Assembly: GCF_003852405.1 (NCBI RefSeq)
Contig: NZ_QAJM01000018.1
Span: 186,001 to 250,000 of the forward strand
DNA length: 64,000 bases
Source of the DNA: Pseudomonas sp. KBW05
Lineage (GTDB): Bacteria > Pseudomonadota > Gammaproteobacteria > Pseudomonadales > Pseudomonadaceae
Direction of reading: 5' to 3'
The position numbers were made by a program, and so were the translations under genes. How positions within the stretch are numbered: position 1 is the stretch's first letter; each line of letters starts with the position of its first letter. Shown piece after piece: positions 1 to 50,614 of this stretch. The notes under the pieces were generated by a model that was not told where the DNA came from, ran no database searches, and worked only from the letters and a program-made list of their open reading frames with translations.

Positions 1-232
1 GTCCCATACGTACCGCAGCAGCAAATCCAAGCGCCACAAGGGACGTAATAGCCACATCGTCCGTGAAGCTGCGAAAGTAGGCTGCTAACGAAAGCCCATT
101 TATAGAAATAAAACTGACTCCCAGTAAGACGATCAGCCACATCACTTGCATACCTGGGCGCAGGCCAAATCTTGGAGTAACGACGAACGCGAGTAGTACG
201 AGGGTCAAATGCGCTTGCCAAAGTTCAAGCAT
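1..232 (-). CDS. Small membrane protein, 3' end beyond the window
   Basis: The start codon ATG (232-230) shares one base with the TAA stop of the sialidase-like gene (234-232), so the two are translationally coupled. The visible 77 residues form three hydrophobic stretches at about 5-19, 30-46 and 58-74 with short polar loops, so this is an inner-membrane protein. The reading frame is open to the left edge of the window. No family recognised. Coupling to an exported sugar-hydrolase-like protein suggests a joint role at the cell envelope, but that is inference. Confidence 0.6.
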   Translation of the reverse strand, partial: MLELWQAHLTLVLLAFVVTPRFGLRPGMQVMWLIVLLGVSFISINGLSLAAYFRSFTDDVAITSLVALGFAAAVRMG

Positions 233-1524
233 TAGAGCTGCTCCTCTAGCCAAGCATCATTGAAGCTGACGTGTTTGATGAAGGTGTTATTCCATGAGTA
301 AACGATATGATAGAGACCATCGTCACTCTTGATGAAATAGGGATATTCGTATTCGAAGTTGCAACCGGTATCCTCGCAGACACGCTGATCAAGATTCACC
401 AAGAATTCATCAGCGAGTATTTCTCTTCGAGGGCCACTGGATAGGCGGAACTTATCGCCGATGATTTCACGGTAGGCTTCAGCGCTAAATGGATTACCTT
501 CTGGGTCTGGAGACTCATCCAAATTGATCAGCGGCTTCCAGAAGTCAAGGTTAGAGTCGGTACTCATAAGCCGAAGTCGGAATCGCCCGTCCTTTAGGTC
601 ATTCAACGCGACCAGCAAGCCGCTATTAGGTGTTGCCACTGCAGCAAGTGAAGAGTTTGGGTTAGCAGGGTCAAGCGGGTAAGGCTCACTCCAGGTTTGC
701 CCTGCATCCTCCGTACGGCTCGCGAGCACTTTGTGAAATGTGTCACCGGCGTAACGCAGCATAGCTACCGCGTTACGCTCATCCATGGGCACAACCGTAG
801 GCTGCAAAGAGTGCTTACCTCTGCTGATTCTGCTTTTATCAATTACATTCCCGGTGGGACTGATGTAAAGATACTCAGCAAATTTCCCCAAAAACTCGTG
901 GTATACAGGCAAGCCGATGGTGCCATCCTGATGAAATATTGGGGCATTGCGCACGAGCGTGCTGATGTTCAAAAAGGGAGTCGTGATCAGTTGCTGAGGG
1001 GCCGACCAATTTTTACCCAAATCATCCGAGTGCATTGCATTGATTGCGCTCCCAGCCCAACCGCCCACTGAGACTGAAACATAGAAGAGCCAAAGACGGT
1101 TATCAGGCGCCAAAGCAATAACCGGATTACCCAGTTTGCGTATGTATTTTTGAGTCGCACGCTGGGTCGACTCTCGCGTTGCAAGAACGAGTTCATCATC
1201 CCATTCAGCCGTTTCGGTGTCGTAGCGAGCGCCGCGAACCTGTACATCGGCTGCACCTTCTCGTGAGCCAGCAAACCATACCGCCATTAGACCGCCATCA
1301 GGCAGTGCCGTCACCGATGAGGCGTGTACAAATTCTTCAAGATCCGAGGAGGCAAATCTGCTGCTGTAAAAAGGTGCCTGAGCGCTAACCCCCTGTTGAT
1401 CGACAGCTGCTGAGAAAGAAAAACCCGATACAGGGCGATCAGGGTGGAGCCACCAGGCGGCAGTAAATACAGCGAAAATCGGGACAAAAAGAGCCGAGCT
1501 GAGAAAAATATTTTTCAAGCGCAT
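232..1524 (-). CDS. Sialidase-like BNR-repeat protein, membrane-anchored or exported
   Basis: 430 aa. Residues about 5-25 are a hydrophobic N-terminal segment (signal anchor or uncleaved signal). The rest has the look of a six-bladed sialidase propeller. Two Asp-box motifs (S/T-x-D-x-G-x-x-W) are visible: SDDLGKNW at 166-173 and TEDAGQTW at 271-278. A stretch near 69-90 (HASSVTALPDGGLMAVWFAG) is typical of the BNR_2/exo-alpha-sialidase-like family. Family members hydrolyse terminal sialic or related acidic sugars, but many bacterial BNR proteins have unproven substrates. It is the first gene of a pair with the downstream membrane gene. It lies in the accessory half of the window. Confidence 0.75.
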   Translation of the reverse strand: MRLKNIFLSSALFVPIFAVFTAAWWLHPDRPVSGFSFSAAVDQQGVSAQAPFYSSRFASSDLEEFVHASSVTALPDGGLMAVWFAGSREGAADVQVRGARYDTETAEWDDELVLATRESTQRATQKYIRKLGNPVIALAPDNRLWLFYVSVSVGGWAGSAINAMHSDDLGKNWSAPQQLITTPFLNISTLVRNAPIFHQDGTIGLPVYHEFLGKFAEYLYISPTGNVIDKSRISRGKHSLQPTVVPMDERNAVAMLRYAGDTFHKVLASRTEDAGQTWSEPYPLDPANPNSSLAAVATPNSGLLVALNDLKDGRFRLRLMSTDSNLDFWKPLINLDESPDPEGNPFSAEAYREIIGDKFRLSSGPRREILADEFLVNLDQRVCEDTGCNFEYEYPYFIKSDDGLYHIVYSWNNTFIKHVSFNDAWLEEQL

Positions 1525-5970: not shown

Positions 5971-6032
5971 GCCTGTCCTTAATTGGAGGACAGGGAGACA
6001 CACCTACGCACCCTGTCCAGGGTTCACGTAGG
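5971..6032 (-). promoter_or_regulatory. Expression platform of the fluoride riboswitch
   Basis: Three mutually exclusive stems can form on the minus strand. (a) CCTACG (6032-6027), the last bases of the aptamer, pairs with CGTAGG (6008-6003), enclosing ACCCT/AGGGT. (b) GGACAGGG (6018-6011) pairs with CCCTGTCC (5995-5988). (c) CCTGTCCT (5994-5987) pairs with AGGACAGG (5979-5972). No T-run follows (c), so control may not be by a simple intrinsic terminator. Confidence 0.6.
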
Positions 6033-6085
6033 CATCATCAGCTCTAAGGCGGTTAAAGGAGGAATGCCATCTCCTGTTCTGATCC
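6022..6085 (-). promoter_or_regulatory. Fluoride riboswitch (crcB motif)
   Basis: The minus strand from about 6075 reads AGGAGATGGCATTCCTCC, then AACCGCC, then GCTGATGATGCCTACG. These are the conserved blocks of the fluoride aptamer: the GGAG/CTCC stem, the GGCAT/ATGCC pseudoknot and the closing GATGATGCC segment. It lies about 140 bases upstream of the crcB start, which is the expected target. Fluoride with Mg2+ stabilises the aptamer and switches on resistance genes. Confidence 0.92.
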
Positions 6086-27902: not shown

Positions 27903-29570
<1,668 letters not shown>

Positions 29571-43190: not shown

Positions 43191-43224
43191 TCCCAAAAAG
43201 GGACCGATAGGTCCCTTTTTGGGA
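43191..43224. terminator. Perfect 15-bp hairpin below the DUF6124 gene
   Basis: TCCCAAAAAGGGACC (43191-43205), loop GATA, GGTCCCTTTTTGGGA (43210-43224). The arms are perfectly complementary. It begins 12 bases beyond the DUF6124 stop. The A/T tract is inside the stem rather than after it, so it may protect RNA ends rather than act as a standard terminator. Confidence 0.6.
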
Positions 43225-43235
43225 ACGATCAAGTG

Positions 43236-43481
43236 TTAAGCCGCAGATGAGGGGGAAATCTGCTCCAGCGCTCGATCCACCAACAACTGCCCAAGCTCTG
43301 CCATTTGCTGGATCCCGAGCATGATTGCGCGCTGGGAGGTGTCCAGGTCGAAGGCCAGGTTGCAGGTCATGGCGTTGAGGGACGACAGGGTTTCGCTGGC
43401 GTTGATCAGCAGGGCTTCGGTGTCTTGGTGAGGGTTGACGGTGAAGAGGTGGGTGGGGGGATTGGGGGTCGGTTTGATCAT
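43236..43481 (-). CDS. DUF6124 small protein
   Basis: 81 aa. MIKPTPNPP at the start, LFTVNPHQDTEALLINASE and AMTCNLAFDLDTSQRAIMLGIQQMAELGQLLVDRALE are typical of a Pseudomonas-specific small helical family (DUF6124, related to DUF3077). Function unknown. Start ATG 43481 has AGGAG seven bases upstream, and that site lies inside a repeat that can be sequestered (see leader 43482-43702). Confidence 0.85.
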   Translation of the reverse strand: MIKPTPNPPTHLFTVNPHQDTEALLINASETLSSLNAMTCNLAFDLDTSQRAIMLGIQQMAELGQLLVDRALEQISPSSAA

Positions 43482-43702
43482 GATGAAGCTCCTAAACAGT
43501 CAGTAAGGAGCGCCACCGTTCGCTTGCACGCGAATGAGGGTGGCGACCGTGCGCAGGTGTGCAAGACCGGGCCTGTTTAGGACACCCAGCAGGTCCGAAG
43601 ACCTCCTGCGCGCAGCCGCCATAAAGCAGCGAGCACAAAAAACGCCCGTTGGATGGCTGGGCGTTTGTACGCCTAAACAGTTTCGTCGGACTTGCACGTC
43701 CG
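43482..43702 (-). promoter_or_regulatory. Structured leader of the DUF6124 gene with alternative pairings
   Basis: Read 5' to 3' on the minus strand. (1) Hairpin CGGAC-GTGCAA-GTCCG (43702-43687). (2) CTGTTTAGG (43680-43672). (3) A terminator-like hairpin. (4) Small hairpin AGGTC-TTCG-GACCT. (5) CCTAAACAG (43581-43573). (6) TTGCAC (43564-43559). (7) Hairpin CGCCACC...GGTGGCG (43545-43511) with inner stem TTCGC/GCGAA and loop GTGCAA. (8) CTGTTTAGG-AG (43499-43489), which is the ribosome binding site. Elements 5 and 6 can pair with 2 and the loop of 1, or with 8 and the loop of 7. The second pairing would hide the ribosome binding site. Confidence 0.6.
43636..43666 (-). terminator. Terminator-like hairpin inside the DUF6124 leader
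   Basis: On the minus strand AAACGCCC (43666-43659), an 11-base loop, GGGCGTTT (43647-43640), then further T. It is 155 bases upstream of the DUF6124 start and no gene ends above it on that strand, so it suggests attenuation within the leader. Confidence 0.65.
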
Positions 43703-43914
43703 TGTCACCGTTTTTTGCGATGACGGGACGAAGACTAGGCGCGCCGACCGCACGCGACAAGTTCATGCCTGGCCCAAAATCTTGCAGGAAAAATCCGAGG
43801 CATCGCCCAACGTCGGCAGACAAGAAGTTTCATACAGCGTTTTAGGGTTGTTGCTAGGAACTGACACTTTTAGCCTCTTTAGCCGAATGCCCAGCGCCAT
43901 AAGAAGGATCCAGA
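43703..43914. other. Gap upstream of the higA-like gene
   Basis: No gene accepted. Promoters for the DUF6124 leader (minus) and the higA-like gene (plus) should lie here. A plus-strand frame 43534-43845 is Arg/Pro-rich, overlaps the structured leader and is rejected. No HigB-type toxin is present. Confidence 0.4.
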
Positions 43915-44199
43915 ATGCCCATACACACTCCCCCTCACCCAGGCGAAATCCTGCTTGAAGACGTGATCCCTGCCCTGGGCATCACCATCACCGAAATGGC
44001 CCGGCATCTGGGGTTTGCTCGTGAGACGTTTTCAAGGATTTTGCACGGGCGTGCGCCGGTCAGCCCGGACTTGGCGGTGCGGCTGGAACGGGCAGGCGTG
44101 AGTACCGGGCAGCTGTGGCTGTCGATGCAGAGTGCTTATGATTTGTGGCAGGCCGAGCATCGGGAACAGCCGGTGATTGAGCGGTTTGCGCGGATTTAG
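43915..44199 (+). CDS. HigA-family antitoxin-like regulator, no toxin adjacent
   Basis: 94 aa. MPIHTPPHPGEILLEDVIPALG is the typical HigA/VapI start, followed by an Xre helix-turn-helix (about 24-62; ITITEMARHLGFARETFSRIL). In pairs the toxin HigB lies directly upstream; here no such gene is found in the preceding 430 bases. It may be a stand-alone regulator or the survivor of a decayed pair. Confidence 0.8.
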   Translation: MPIHTPPHPGEILLEDVIPALGITITEMARHLGFARETFSRILHGRAPVSPDLAVRLERAGVSTGQLWLSMQSAYDLWQAEHREQPVIERFARI

Positions 44200-47800: not shown

Positions 47801-50614
47801 GTGCGCGCCCTCCCCCAGCGTGGTCAGCTCATCCAGCAGCGCGGTGAGTTCCTGACGCTCGCCAGGGTGCTGTTGCCAGCGGCGCAACAGGGTTTCGGCG
47901 TCGAGCAGGATGTCCATGCCCTGGGCCAGGAAGTTGGCGATCAGTTGCGGGTCGCGCTTGATGCGCAGGCCGGTGTTGGGCGCGTCGAGCAAGGCGGCCA
48001 GTTGCTGATCGAGCAGGGCCTGGATGCGCGTGATCAGGTCCGGCGCGCCTTTGATCGGCGCCAGCGGGTCGCGGTCCAAGTGGCGCAAGCCGCGCTGGAA
48101 GAGGCCTTCGGCTTCCAGCAGCAACTCCACTTCATCCAGGTCCAGCGGCAGGCGGTGCGCCTTGTATTCGCGGGTCAGGTGATCCAGCGGCCGCGCCAGT
48201 TCGGCGATGGGCAACACGCCGGCCATGTACGCACTGCCCTTGAGGGTGTGCAGGGCGCGTTGCAGTTCATCGCTGACTTGCAGCGGCATATGTTCGGCGG
48301 CTTGTTGCAGGAAGTGGTTGAGGCTGTCCAGGTGGCTCTGGGCTTCGTTACGGAAGATCTCCAGCAGCATCGGGTCATGGGGTTCGGCGGCCGGCACGGC
48401 GGTGCCACTGGCCAGCGCGTGGGCGCGGGCGGCCAGGGCGTCGACTTCGTCGCGCTGGTGTTGGTCGTCGGTGGCAAAGTCGGCGATCAATTCCGGCAGC
48501 AGGGCCACCGCCTCATCCAGTACCTGTTGCACCTCTGGGCCAAGGTTCACGCTGCGCTCCAGCACGCGGTTGAGCAGGTTTTCCACGGCCCAGGCCAGCT
48601 CCGCCAAGACCAGGGCGCGGACCATGCGGCCGCTGCCTTTCAAGGTGTGGAAGGCTCGGCGCATCTCGCCCAGGGCGGTTTTATCGGCCGCGCTCGCCAG
48701 GTGGCGGTGCAGCACGTCAAGGACTTCATCGGTCTCTTCGAGGAACACTTCGCGCAGTTCATCGTCGATGGGTTCTTCGTCGGCCGGTGGCGGCAACAGG
48801 CTGCCCGGGCGTTGCAGCGCGGGGGGGTTGAGGCGCGACGTCGGGTTGGCCAGCGCGTCGAACTGCGACTGGCTCGGTGCAGCCTCGGTGGACAACACAC
48901 CGTCCGGCGCCACCAGCGCTTGGCGCCAGGGTTTTTCCGCCGGCAGGTAACCCAGCGCCGCCAAGGCCTGGGTGGCGGTTTCCAGGACCCGTTCGCCGTC
49001 GGCGTCGGGGTCCTGGAGCATGCGTTCGAGGTAGTACTCCAGGCTGCTGATCACGTCGGCGAAATACGCCAGGTCGTCGGCGGACGGCGCCGTGTCATTG
49101 AGCATCAGTTCTTCATCGACGTAGTCGGTGCAACCGCGCATCAGGCTCGCCGCCCGTGGCAGCGGGATCATCGCCAACGCGCCGCGCACCTGGCTAAGCA
49201 GTTCCGGCAGGGATTCCAGGCGCTGCCTGTCCCAATCGGCTTCCAGGCAGTCGATCACCAGTTCTTTGGCCTGGCGCAGGCATTGGCAGGATTCGCGGAT
49301 CACCAACTGGTGGATCTGCGTCAGGTCGGTGGTGGGCAAGCGGCTTTCTTCACGGCTTTCCGGCTCGACGGTGCCGACCATCCCCGCCAGCGTCGCTTCG
49401 ACGTAAAGCAACGCGCCCGCAACGTCCATCAACACGGCGTCGTTGGGTTCGCGTTGGCCCTGGGCCAGGCTCAGCACCACAGCGAGCTGGTCGATGATGA
49501 CTTTGCGCGGCTGGCCGAAACCCAGCACCGCCAGGGTGTCGGCAATCTGCCGCAACGGCGCGAGCAACGCATCGAGGTCGCTGGTGTGCTGGCGGTCACT
49601 GCGCACGAACAGGTCGAGGCGTTCCTTGACCCGCACCAGTTCTTCGCACAAGGCGCCGAGCACCGAGCCCATGGCATTGCGATCCGGCCCGGCCAGCCGC
49701 GCGCGCTCGGCGTCCACCACCGCGCTGTCGGGCAAGGCTTCATCCAGGCCGTAGCGTTCCTTGAGGCTTTGCATGCGCGGCGTCGGCCGGGTGACTTTGG
49801 CCACGTAGAACAACAGGCTCTTGAGCAACTCATCCGGCGCCGGCTGGTTGATCCCGCCAATGCCCTGGGCCAGCAAACGCTTGAGTTGTTTGTCGCTGGC
49901 CTTGAGCAGGCTGCGCAGCGCCGGGCTGTTGGCGATCACGCCGGTGAGCATGCCTTCGACCAGCGCCGAGGTGACTTGCCACAGCGGCAACAACGGCGCG
50001 CCCTGGCACAGCGCTTCAAGGCGCGCGAACACCCGCGCCATGTCTTCCAGGTTGCTCGGGCCATGGTCTTCGCGCAGCAACCCGGCGAGGGCTTGTTGCA
50101 GCAGTTGGTGCCACTGGCGCAGTTGCGCTTGCAGGTCGGGCGTCGCGCGTTGGGCCAGGGCTTCGTCGGGTAACGGCGCAATCGACAGCAGTTGCGGGCT
50201 GAACAGGCTGGTTTCCGACAACAGGCTTTCGCCGCGCGCACTGCGCAGGTCGTTGAGCAGCGGCAGCACCACCAGCGGCAAGTCGCGGCGGGCACTGTGT
50301 ACGCGGTCAAGGTACAGCGGCAGTTGGCTGAGGGCCTGTTGCAGGAGGCGGATGCTTTCATCGCGCTGGCTGACCTGCCCGGCCTGGAACGCCAGGGCCA
50401 GGTGCTCGATCTCTTCGGCCAGCAACGCCGCGCCGTAGAACTCGACCATTTGCAGCGCACCATGCACCTGGTGGATGCCGGCCAGGCACTGGGCGATGAC
50501 GGCGCTGTCGCCGGTTTCGACAAACGCGTCCAGCGCCGAACGGGCCTGTTTCAGGGTTTCGGCAATGTCGCCCTTGACCCATTCGAGGGCCACGTAGTCG
50601 TGCCGATCAACCAT
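44795..50614 (-). CDS. chpA: Hybrid histidine kinase/response regulator ChpA
   Basis: 1939 aa from ATG 50614 (GGAG five bases upstream). Four HTLKG phosphotransfer sites are visible, with the His near residues 654, 788, 1088 and 1227. Then come a CheA-like dimerisation part, an ATPase domain (LEHMLRNAVDHGLES, about 1525), a CheW domain (about 1670-1790), and a receiver domain at the end (about 1810-1938; VLVVDDSVTVRKV, MLLDIEMPRMDG). P. aeruginosa ChpA is 2472 aa with more phosphotransfer domains, so this one is shorter. It controls type IV pilus activity and cAMP through PilG and PilH. Long plus-strand frames opposite are shadows. Confidence 0.95.
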   Translation of the reverse strand: MVDRHDYVALEWVKGDIAETLKQARSALDAFVETGDSAVIAQCLAGIHQVHGALQMVEFYGAALLAEEIEHLALAFQAGQVSQRDESIRLLQQALSQLPLYLDRVHSARRDLPLVVLPLLNDLRSARGESLLSETSLFSPQLLSIAPLPDEALAQRATPDLQAQLRQWHQLLQQALAGLLREDHGPSNLEDMARVFARLEALCQGAPLLPLWQVTSALVEGMLTGVIANSPALRSLLKASDKQLKRLLAQGIGGINQPAPDELLKSLLFYVAKVTRPTPRMQSLKERYGLDEALPDSAVVDAERARLAGPDRNAMGSVLGALCEELVRVKERLDLFVRSDRQHTSDLDALLAPLRQIADTLAVLGFGQPRKVIIDQLAVVLSLAQGQREPNDAVLMDVAGALLYVEATLAGMVGTVEPESREESRLPTTDLTQIHQLVIRESCQCLRQAKELVIDCLEADWDRQRLESLPELLSQVRGALAMIPLPRAASLMRGCTDYVDEELMLNDTAPSADDLAYFADVISSLEYYLERMLQDPDADGERVLETATQALAALGYLPAEKPWRQALVAPDGVLSTEAAPSQSQFDALANPTSRLNPPALQRPGSLLPPPADEEPIDDELREVFLEETDEVLDVLHRHLASAADKTALGEMRRAFHTLKGSGRMVRALVLAELAWAVENLLNRVLERSVNLGPEVQQVLDEAVALLPELIADFATDDQHQRDEVDALAARAHALASGTAVPAAEPHDPMLLEIFRNEAQSHLDSLNHFLQQAAEHMPLQVSDELQRALHTLKGSAYMAGVLPIAELARPLDHLTREYKAHRLPLDLDEVELLLEAEGLFQRGLRHLDRDPLAPIKGAPDLITRIQALLDQQLAALLDAPNTGLRIKRDPQLIANFLAQGMDILLDAETLLRRWQQHPGERQELTALLDELTTLGEGAHIADLHAIDELCEALLDLYGAVEESSLAVSERFFQEAELAHEALINMLDQLAAGQEISPVPARLQALRELLDEALDPSATGLVKSDGSRALSIAELGAATAQLDQDTAVDDEIVEIFLEEAVDILDSAGQSLKRWLLEPDGVAPLSSLQRDMHTLKGGARMAEITPVAELAHELEGLYEGLVDRRYSYSAELSQVLMACHERLALQLDELQQQQPLSDSAELVAKVRALRQSTPPAAAAQAVESPGADPELLDIFLEEAADILDSSGSALLRWQAEPGNRQEVETLLRDLHTLKGGARMVEIGPIGDLAHELEFLYEGLSAGLLAPSAELFALLQGCHDRLAQMIDAVADGLPVGSVDKLIERIKSLVHPSTEPVVPVALAANKAEAVVDPAADMVKISAELLDDLVNLAGETSIFRGRIEQQVNDARIALSEVETTIERMRDQLRRLDTETQGRILSRQQAEAERLGYEEFDPLEMDRHSQLQQLSRALSESASDLLDLKDTLDRRNSDAHDLLQQQARINTELQEGLMRTRMVPFERMLPRLKRIVRQVAGELGKDVEFIVGNAEGEMDRNVLERMAAPLEHMLRNAVDHGLESRDARLLAGKPEKGRITLDLTHEGGDIVFDMRDDGAGVPLEAVRRKAIKRGLLAPDQEISDRDVLQFILQPGFSTAEKITQISGRGVGMDVVHEEVRQLGGSMFIESTPGVGVHFRIRLPFTVSVNRALMVQCADDQYAIPLNTIEGLVRVMPHELAGHYQQDPPRYEYAGQRYELFYLGDLLHTVGRPKLLGQYQPVPVLLVQCNERRVAVHVDAMAGTREIVVKGLGPQFAAVQGLSGATILGDGRVVLIIDLLAHIRARQPALPAQAVDAPLVLNDPLKKRPLLVLVVDDSVTVRKVTSRLLERNGMNVLTAKDGIDAIAVLEEHTPDLMLLDIEMPRMDGFEVAIQVRNDPRLMRLPIIMITSRTGQKHRDRAMAIGVNDYLGKPYQESVLLESIAYWSKSHA

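Follow-up and report, generated by a model that had tools for sequence, protein, structure and literature searches.

The leader of a small DUF6124 gene on the chromosome of Pseudomonas sp. KBW05 is very probably that of a complete cassette built around a C4 antisense RNA, as known from phage P1; this C4 is likely to silence the DUF6124 gene in trans. The leader is located in a window of 64,000 nt (the whole stretch of DNA that was analysed) and shows the following features, given from the promoter side towards the gene and beyond:

43732..43760, minus strand: promoter-like TTGTCG-17-TAGTCT, read from the sequence
43704..43724, minus strand: 5' hairpin of the a1b1 RNA, within the sub-threshold c4-a1b1 match
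43687..43702, minus strand: a1 hairpin, with a1 (GTGCAAG, 43697-43691) mostly in the loop and complementary to a'
43672..43680, minus strand: b1 (CTGTTTAGG), from the sequence, complementary to b'
43637..43665, minus strand: terminator-like hairpin (stem 7, loop 11) and T-run between a1b1 and C4, inside the isrK match
43536..43626, minus strand: C4 antisense RNA (RF01695, 62.7 bits)
43573..43581, minus strand: b' (CCTAAACAG), P3 loop in the C4 structure, complementary to b1 and b2
43559..43565, minus strand: a' (CTTGCAC), single strand between P3 and P1 of C4, complementary to a1 and a2
43519..43534, minus strand: a2 hairpin, with a2 (GTGCAAG, 43529-43523) mostly in the loop, from sequence and fold
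43489..43499, minus strand: b2 (CTGTTTAGGAG), from the sequence, overlapping the Shine-Dalgarno site and complementary to b'
43236..43481, minus strand: target gene, DUF6124 (PF19619), 81 aa, 104.9 bits against a cut-off of 27
43195..43220, minus strand: terminator-like inverted repeat 3' of the DUF6124 gene, found by eye and not listed by the scanner

A preliminary description of this leader had recognised no named RNA family. The central module was identified as C4, with a score of 62.7 bits against the Rfam gathering cut-off of 45 and a match over model positions 1-87 of 87 (RF01695). The upstream part remained below the gathering scores of both c4-a1b1 (RF03163, 43738-43683, 23.8 bits against 46.7) and isrK (RF01394, 43724-43635, 28.7 bits against 50), and the a1 and b1 copies (GTGCAAG at 43697-43691 and CTGTTTAGG at 43680-43672) were found at the level of sequence. 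Among five paralogous loci of the same genome that were scanned, L011, L018, L010 and L014 passed the c4-a1b1 cut-off and L009 stayed below it at 43.0, while the isrK cut-off was passed by L018 (59.9) and L011 (50.4). Both a' and b' lie in unpaired regions of C4 and are complementary to a2 and b2 at the ribosome site (CTTGCAC/GTGCAAG and CCTAAACAG/CTGTTTAGG, respectively). The identical parse was obtained for phage P1 as a control (c4 at 48337-48422 of AF234172), with a1 TTGACAG, b1 GTTAGTG, a2 TTGACAG and b2 GTTAGTGA. As far as can be read from sequence, the layout of the cassette is that of phage P1, and a 5' end of the mature C4 would be expected near 43620 (G43620), given that RNase P trims C4 RNAs to about 77 nt.

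The same scans recovered a SAH riboswitch (28033-28139, plus strand, 66.4 bits) and a fluoride riboswitch (crcB motif, 6022-6083, minus strand, 57.3 bits) elsewhere in the window. In locus L018 a tRNA (997-1069), a C4 cassette (1448-1533) and a radC RNA motif (2417-2550) were located on the plus strand within 1.6 kb, perhaps marking an integration site, and locus L264 carried three C4 matches within about 460 nt (622-1079, minus strand); the ORF rule described below (at least 55 aa) gave no gene behind two of these.

Read on the minus strand, all repeat coordinates of the preliminary description were correct. CTGTTTAGG is present at 43680-43672 and 43499-43491 with its complement CCTAAACAG at 43581-43573, and GTGCAA at 43697-43692 and 43529-43524 with TTGCAC at 43564-43559; this second set extends to seven bases (GTGCAAG/CTTGCAC). 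Both GTGCAA copies were found by eye in the loops of the two hairpins that had been described as carrying identical loops, and the downstream hairpin also appeared in the computed fold. The terminator-like hairpin noted between the first and central copies is likewise present (43665-43637, with a T-run). The arrangement had been judged too exact for chance, and a 9-mer with two copies on either side of its complement was indeed found once in the 221-nt span and in none of 5000 dinucleotide shuffles of it. The proposed ability of the central module to pair with the copy on either side, one copy being the ribosome site, was supported.

C4 RNAs proved to be widespread in the genus. C4 passed the cut-off of its covariance model in 138 of 150 sampled genomes, for each of which up to 27 candidates were scored, so that copy numbers in the 33 genomes reaching 27 are to be read as "at least". 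Five genomes picked for reaching 27 candidates contained 42, 30, 35, 37 and 33 C4 copies. The genome of the window encoded 13 C4 RNAs and 12 DUF6124 genes, 11 of which were located directly behind a C4. DUF6124 was present in 119 of the 150 genomes and in none of the 11 genomes without a C4 match. Outside the genus, C4 was found in 11 of 228 gammaproteobacteria with a maximum of four copies (the class-wide sample of 229 includes the genome of the window). Judging from named relatives of DUF6124, all 80 of which belong to Pseudomonas, the sampled genus is Pseudomonas, or perhaps, as GTDB delimits genera, just a part of Pseudomonas.

The association of C4 and DUF6124 showed exceptions. A C4 match was absent from the locus in eight of the 80 named relatives, one of which (L222) includes no more than 150 nt ahead of its DUF6124 match. 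Five others of these eight (L166, L169, L172, L174 and L175) kept a1 and b1 (CTGTTTAGG) and had no C4. In four other genomes, 29 of 105 DUF6124 matches lacked a listed C4 in the preceding 700 nt, although the listing for these genomes did not contain every C4. By eye, a GTTCCT...AGGAA inverted repeat was seen over the ribosome site, in the place of C4, in loci L166, L169, L172, L174 and L175. The cassette of the window is surrounded by HlyIII, HigA, CheW-like and LysR genes, and the HigA-family antitoxin gene lies beside it (43915-44199, plus strand). Of the 80 named loci of 3-6 kb, 20 likewise contained a HigA-like gene.

An ORF of at least 55 aa began 41-58 nt past C4 in 186 of 209 cassettes, and in 16 there was none by this rule. 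In five genomes, the ORF rule yielded 123 proteins downstream of 136 C4s, which Pfam assigned to DUF6124 (81), DUF3077 (17) and Bro-N (6); at least 19 had no Pfam family at E 0.001. An N-terminal motif like MIKxTPNPP was shared by 76 of the 123, including the Bro-N protein of L121 (MIKVTPNPP). This head common to DUF6124 and Bro-N proteins suggests that genes have been exchanged behind it. The Bro-N domain (BRO family, N-terminal domain) is common in phage antirepressors. Bro-N domain proteins were encoded by C4-led genes in loci L089, L121, L242 and L247. In L009 (minus strand), downstream of C4, the ribosome site with b2 belongs to a short ORF, and the stop codon of this ORF, by eye, overlaps the DUF3077 start (ATGA), an arrangement resembling the orf45-anrP overlap of Gifsy-1 (excerpt of PMC4825925).

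The DUF6124 protein itself was modelled as a helical hairpin (H21-43 and H48-75) with a mean pLDDT of 88.7 from an alignment of 45 sequences and of 74.9 from the single sequence. A structure search gave no match at E <= 0.001 in PDB or BFVD, and the single match among PDB sequences had an E value of only 0.094; the predicted two-helix hairpin says little about the protein. No DUF6124 match was obtained in the plasmid search. The phage collection yielded one match, near the end of a record, and PHROG one weak match, to a PHROG of unknown function, while a single DUF6124 protein used as query against viral contigs retrieved 25 relatives.

The preliminary description had suggested a comparison of homologous leaders for covariation, and across such leaders the pairings were kept via covarying changes. 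We parsed cassettes from five genomes, 136 in total (all 13 C4s in G000, 34 of 42 in G005, 29 of 33 in G125, 25 of 30 in G046, and 35 cassettes in G119, made up of 33 of its 37 listed C4s and two from our own model; G100 was left out). Weak opposite-strand matches and overlapping duplicates were removed and loops were parsed by model alignment. Within their own genome 135 of the 136 b' codes were distinct, the exception being a tandem duplicate in G005, and a' occurred in 9 to 24 forms per genome. We then compared own with swapped complementarity by ungapped matching on the parsed loops in six sets, i.e. the five genomes and 73 named cassettes (209 cassettes). For all four pairings and in each set, own exceeded swapped complementarity, with 0 of 10,000 permutations reaching the observed value. 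This measure replaced an earlier test based on duplex energies, which was noisy and gave few strict best ranks; with it, the observed value for the pairing of b' with its upstream copy was reached in 311 of 2000 permutations in G005 and, a weak result, in 58 of 2000 in G125.

The match between own a' and a2 was at least six bases long in 202 of the 209 cassettes. Own b2 was strictly the best among the sites of its genome in 10/13, 17/34, 19/29, 19/35 and 13/25 cassettes, specificity thus being imperfect by this measure, and own b1 was strictly best in 6 of the 73 named cassettes. We also compared pairs of cassettes that agree in a', differ in b' and have no more than three differences in the scaffold. 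Own beat cross pairing both ways in 517 of 586 such pairs at b2 and in 279 of the same pairs at b1; the 586 pairs draw on 87 cassettes and cannot be treated as independent. The pairing at the ribosome site is therefore better kept than that at b1. Since the code differs from cassette to cassette in most cases, each C4 would be expected to act chiefly on the gene of its cassette. Repression of DUF6124 by C4 in trans would be consistent with this covariation.

The changes can be followed in closely related copies. The window's genome contains two near-identical cassettes, C54 and C44, whose 87-nt C4s diverge at six positions of b' and at the final two bases. The sites b1 and b2 have followed b', and the remainder is largely unchanged, a1, a' and a2 included. 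Among leaders with a' CTTGCAC, eight rows (window included) carry CTGTTTAGG at both b1 and b2, and 22 rows have b' CCGATATG, most of them with matching b1 and b2. In the latter group b2 is CATATCGG in 21 of 22 rows and TATATCGG in L161. Their b1 is CATATCGG or the G-U-compatible CATGTCGG, except in L221, where it is CATATCGC, and in L162 and L147, where no a1-b1 was found at the expected place. Two further loci with this a' (L212 and L217) use a third code, and for the second C4 of L167, an orphan, there is no matching site. As a HigA-like gene occurs in loci of both main code groups, a change of code apparently took place at a single site in the chromosome. We tested for avoidance of code sharing inside a genome: among pairs of equal scaffold lengths, the same b' was found in 1 of 1577 within genomes (the tandem duplicate) and in 11 of 5947 between genomes. 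These events are too few for the test to show selection for private codes.

Taken further, the data might describe a coded antisense network in Pseudomonas, an interpretation we put forward tentatively and hold to be somewhat less than an even prospect. Cells would contain 13-42 C4 RNAs (six genomes), almost all with a private address in two parts, an a' of a smaller alphabet and a hypervariable b', that co-evolves at three sites. The RNAs would control a family of small helical and antirepressor-like (Bro-N) proteins, and their codes would be driven apart after duplication and be shared in part with the RNAs that confer immunity in phages and satellites.

C4 has been known mainly for its role in phage immunity. 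The chromosomal copies might mainly target incoming phages or resident prophages of the same code, with DUF6124 regulation being secondary. We screened viral contigs with a C4 pattern, which recovers 117 of 289 of the collected loci, and found 94 stretches; our own model gave 105 C4 matches. The b' of 43 of these 105 was identical to that of a fetched chromosomal cassette, and in 28 of 105 both a' and b' were identical. The Pseudomonas phage records CF3a, phiAH14b and U10 also encoded C4 with a1, b1, a2 and b2, and phiAH14b and U10 carry integrase and primase genes and are satellite-like. However, the shared viral matches reduce to 12 distinct b', and these are raw counts for a short and biased sequence. 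The viral contigs moreover repeat each other, some carry DUF6124 cassettes rather than phage genes, and some of the genome copies may be prophage-borne. We consider a primary role in immunity unlikely, even though it is the best placed of the alternatives to control of the adjacent gene. By a strict motif, 9 of the 105 viral C4 matches preceded a small basic ORF (LSVRLxRYN-like), with more seen by eye; other viral-contig C4s were DUF6124- or DUF3077-like cassettes. On L364, L307, L348 and similar viral contigs, C4 was immediately followed by a small ORF (about 52 aa) whose motif resembles LSVRLxRYNxHM.

Folding predictions bear on how the two sets of copies are used. When C4 was folded alone, a' and seven of the nine b' bases were open. 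In the whole leader of the window folded alone, the upstream pairings dominated (0.993 for b1-b' and 0.988 for a1-a') and the downstream pairings were at 0.000. Upstream exceeded downstream cis pairing in 116 of 136 cassettes, and more than half of the b' loop was taken up by the upstream copy in 44. As the full leader buries a' and b' in the upstream copies, release of C4 would depend on processing.

The preliminary description had read the arrangement as an RNA switch or a duplicated regulator target. One half of the switch reading stood, as both pairings are possible; a simple switch in cis did not, as cis folding favours the upstream copies. Such a switch would have the nascent leader choose between pairing of b1/a1 with b'/a' and of b'/a' with b2/a2, without a separate antisense RNA. 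Both pairings can form within one molecule, with the upstream one strongly favoured in the leader of the window, yet in cis the downstream copy was predicted to take up over half of the loop in only 4 of 136 cassettes for b' and in none of the 136 for a'. The conserved C4 scaffold, which displays a' and b', would furthermore be superfluous for a plain switch, and the C4 RNAs of P1/P7 and their Acinetobacter relatives are reported to be processed from larger transcripts (excerpt of PMC5320573). We therefore regard this reading as improbable. Together with the reported processing and trans action in P1/P7, the cis folding makes it most likely that the downstream pairing is intermolecular.

A promoter-like TTGnnn-16..18-TAnnnT element upstream of a1 was found in 120 of 136 cassettes of the five genomes, compared with 5.1 expected from mononucleotide shuffles, and in 99 of these 120 the box ended 30-32 nt before a1. 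A scanner with a strict sigma-70 consensus found no promoter in the leader of the window. A terminator-like hairpin preceded C4 in 34 of 136 cassettes (11 in a stricter count without G-T pairs), where shuffles gave 1.3, and in 39 of the 73 named cassettes, window included, where they gave 2.0. With the hairpin in only 34 of 136 cassettes, termination at this position cannot be general.

For silencing in trans, we propose the following course of events. The leader would be transcribed from the promoter through a1/b1, the terminator, C4, a2/b2 and the DUF6124 gene. The read-through RNA would then be cut, as it is by RNase P in phage P1, and C4 would be freed. Mature C4 would pair in trans via a' and b' with a2 and b2 and block ribosome entry on the DUF6124 mRNA. 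Where transcription stops at the terminator, the a1/b1 segment may be made alone. It could titrate C4, as IsrK may do, or be a site of C4-promoted termination, as in the case of P4 CI RNA.

That the cassette is instead a relic of a dead prophage without present function is hardly credible: C4 is a phage immunity RNA carried by Pseudomonas phage and satellite-like records, but the cassette sits among HlyIII, HigA, CheW-like and LysR genes, with HigA-like genes recurring in a quarter of the named loci (20/80), and its pairings have been maintained through changes at three sites.

The C4 family as such was already known. The c4 antisense RNA of Proteobacteria and phages was tabulated together with c4-a1b1 in 2010 (excerpt of PMC2864571), and this prediction included Pseudomonadales among others according to an excerpt of PMC5320573, which itself described many C4-like sRNAs in Acinetobacter in 2016. 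A partial literature search with supplements excluded found no paper on the C4-DUF6124 unit and, by name, none on DUF6124. What is new is the genus-wide, multicopy and code-diverse set of predicted chromosomal C4 RNAs with DUF6124 genes as putative targets. Such a family provides dozens of natural address pairs per cell, most of them beside a matching target, and therewith a system for studying the orthogonality of short RNA codes and the joint change of antisense and target. The cassettes also represent a route to what DUF6124 and DUF3077 proteins do, and could serve as a model when orphan C4-like RNAs in Acinetobacter are considered.

The closest known systems are the C4 RNAs of P1/P7 (RF01695, RF03163), which share with the cassette the C4 fold, the order a1 b1 - C4 - a2 b2 - gene, and the position of b2 just before the gene start. 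The C4 RNA of P1/P7 is cut by RNase P from a longer transcript and acts on target mRNAs, with b' covering the ribosome site (excerpt of PMC5320573). Unlike these, the Pseudomonas C4s are chromosomal, with 13 to 42 copies in six genomes and many codes per cell, and they are followed by DUF6124, DUF3077, Bro-N and unnamed small proteins instead of icd/ant. IsrK/STnc1160 of Salmonella Gifsy-1 resembles the cassette in its short terminator-ended RNA, a read-through RNA with a processed RNA downstream, and control of a downstream ribosome site; short IsrK was measured to activate translation of its own read-through RNA in trans (excerpt of PMC4825925). In contrast, the isrK score of the window (28.7) is below the cut-off of 50 and no antirepressor gene follows its C4. 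The authors of PMC4825925 compared IsrK with P4 CI RNA, which by its description in the excerpt of that paper is likewise an antisense RNA that arises by processing, with a complementary site on either side (seqA and seqC). The Group 1 sRNAs of Acinetobacter baumannii likewise comprise many C4-like RNAs per genome with variable a' (excerpt of PMC5320573), whereas most Pseudomonas C4s directly precede a gene with a matching site.
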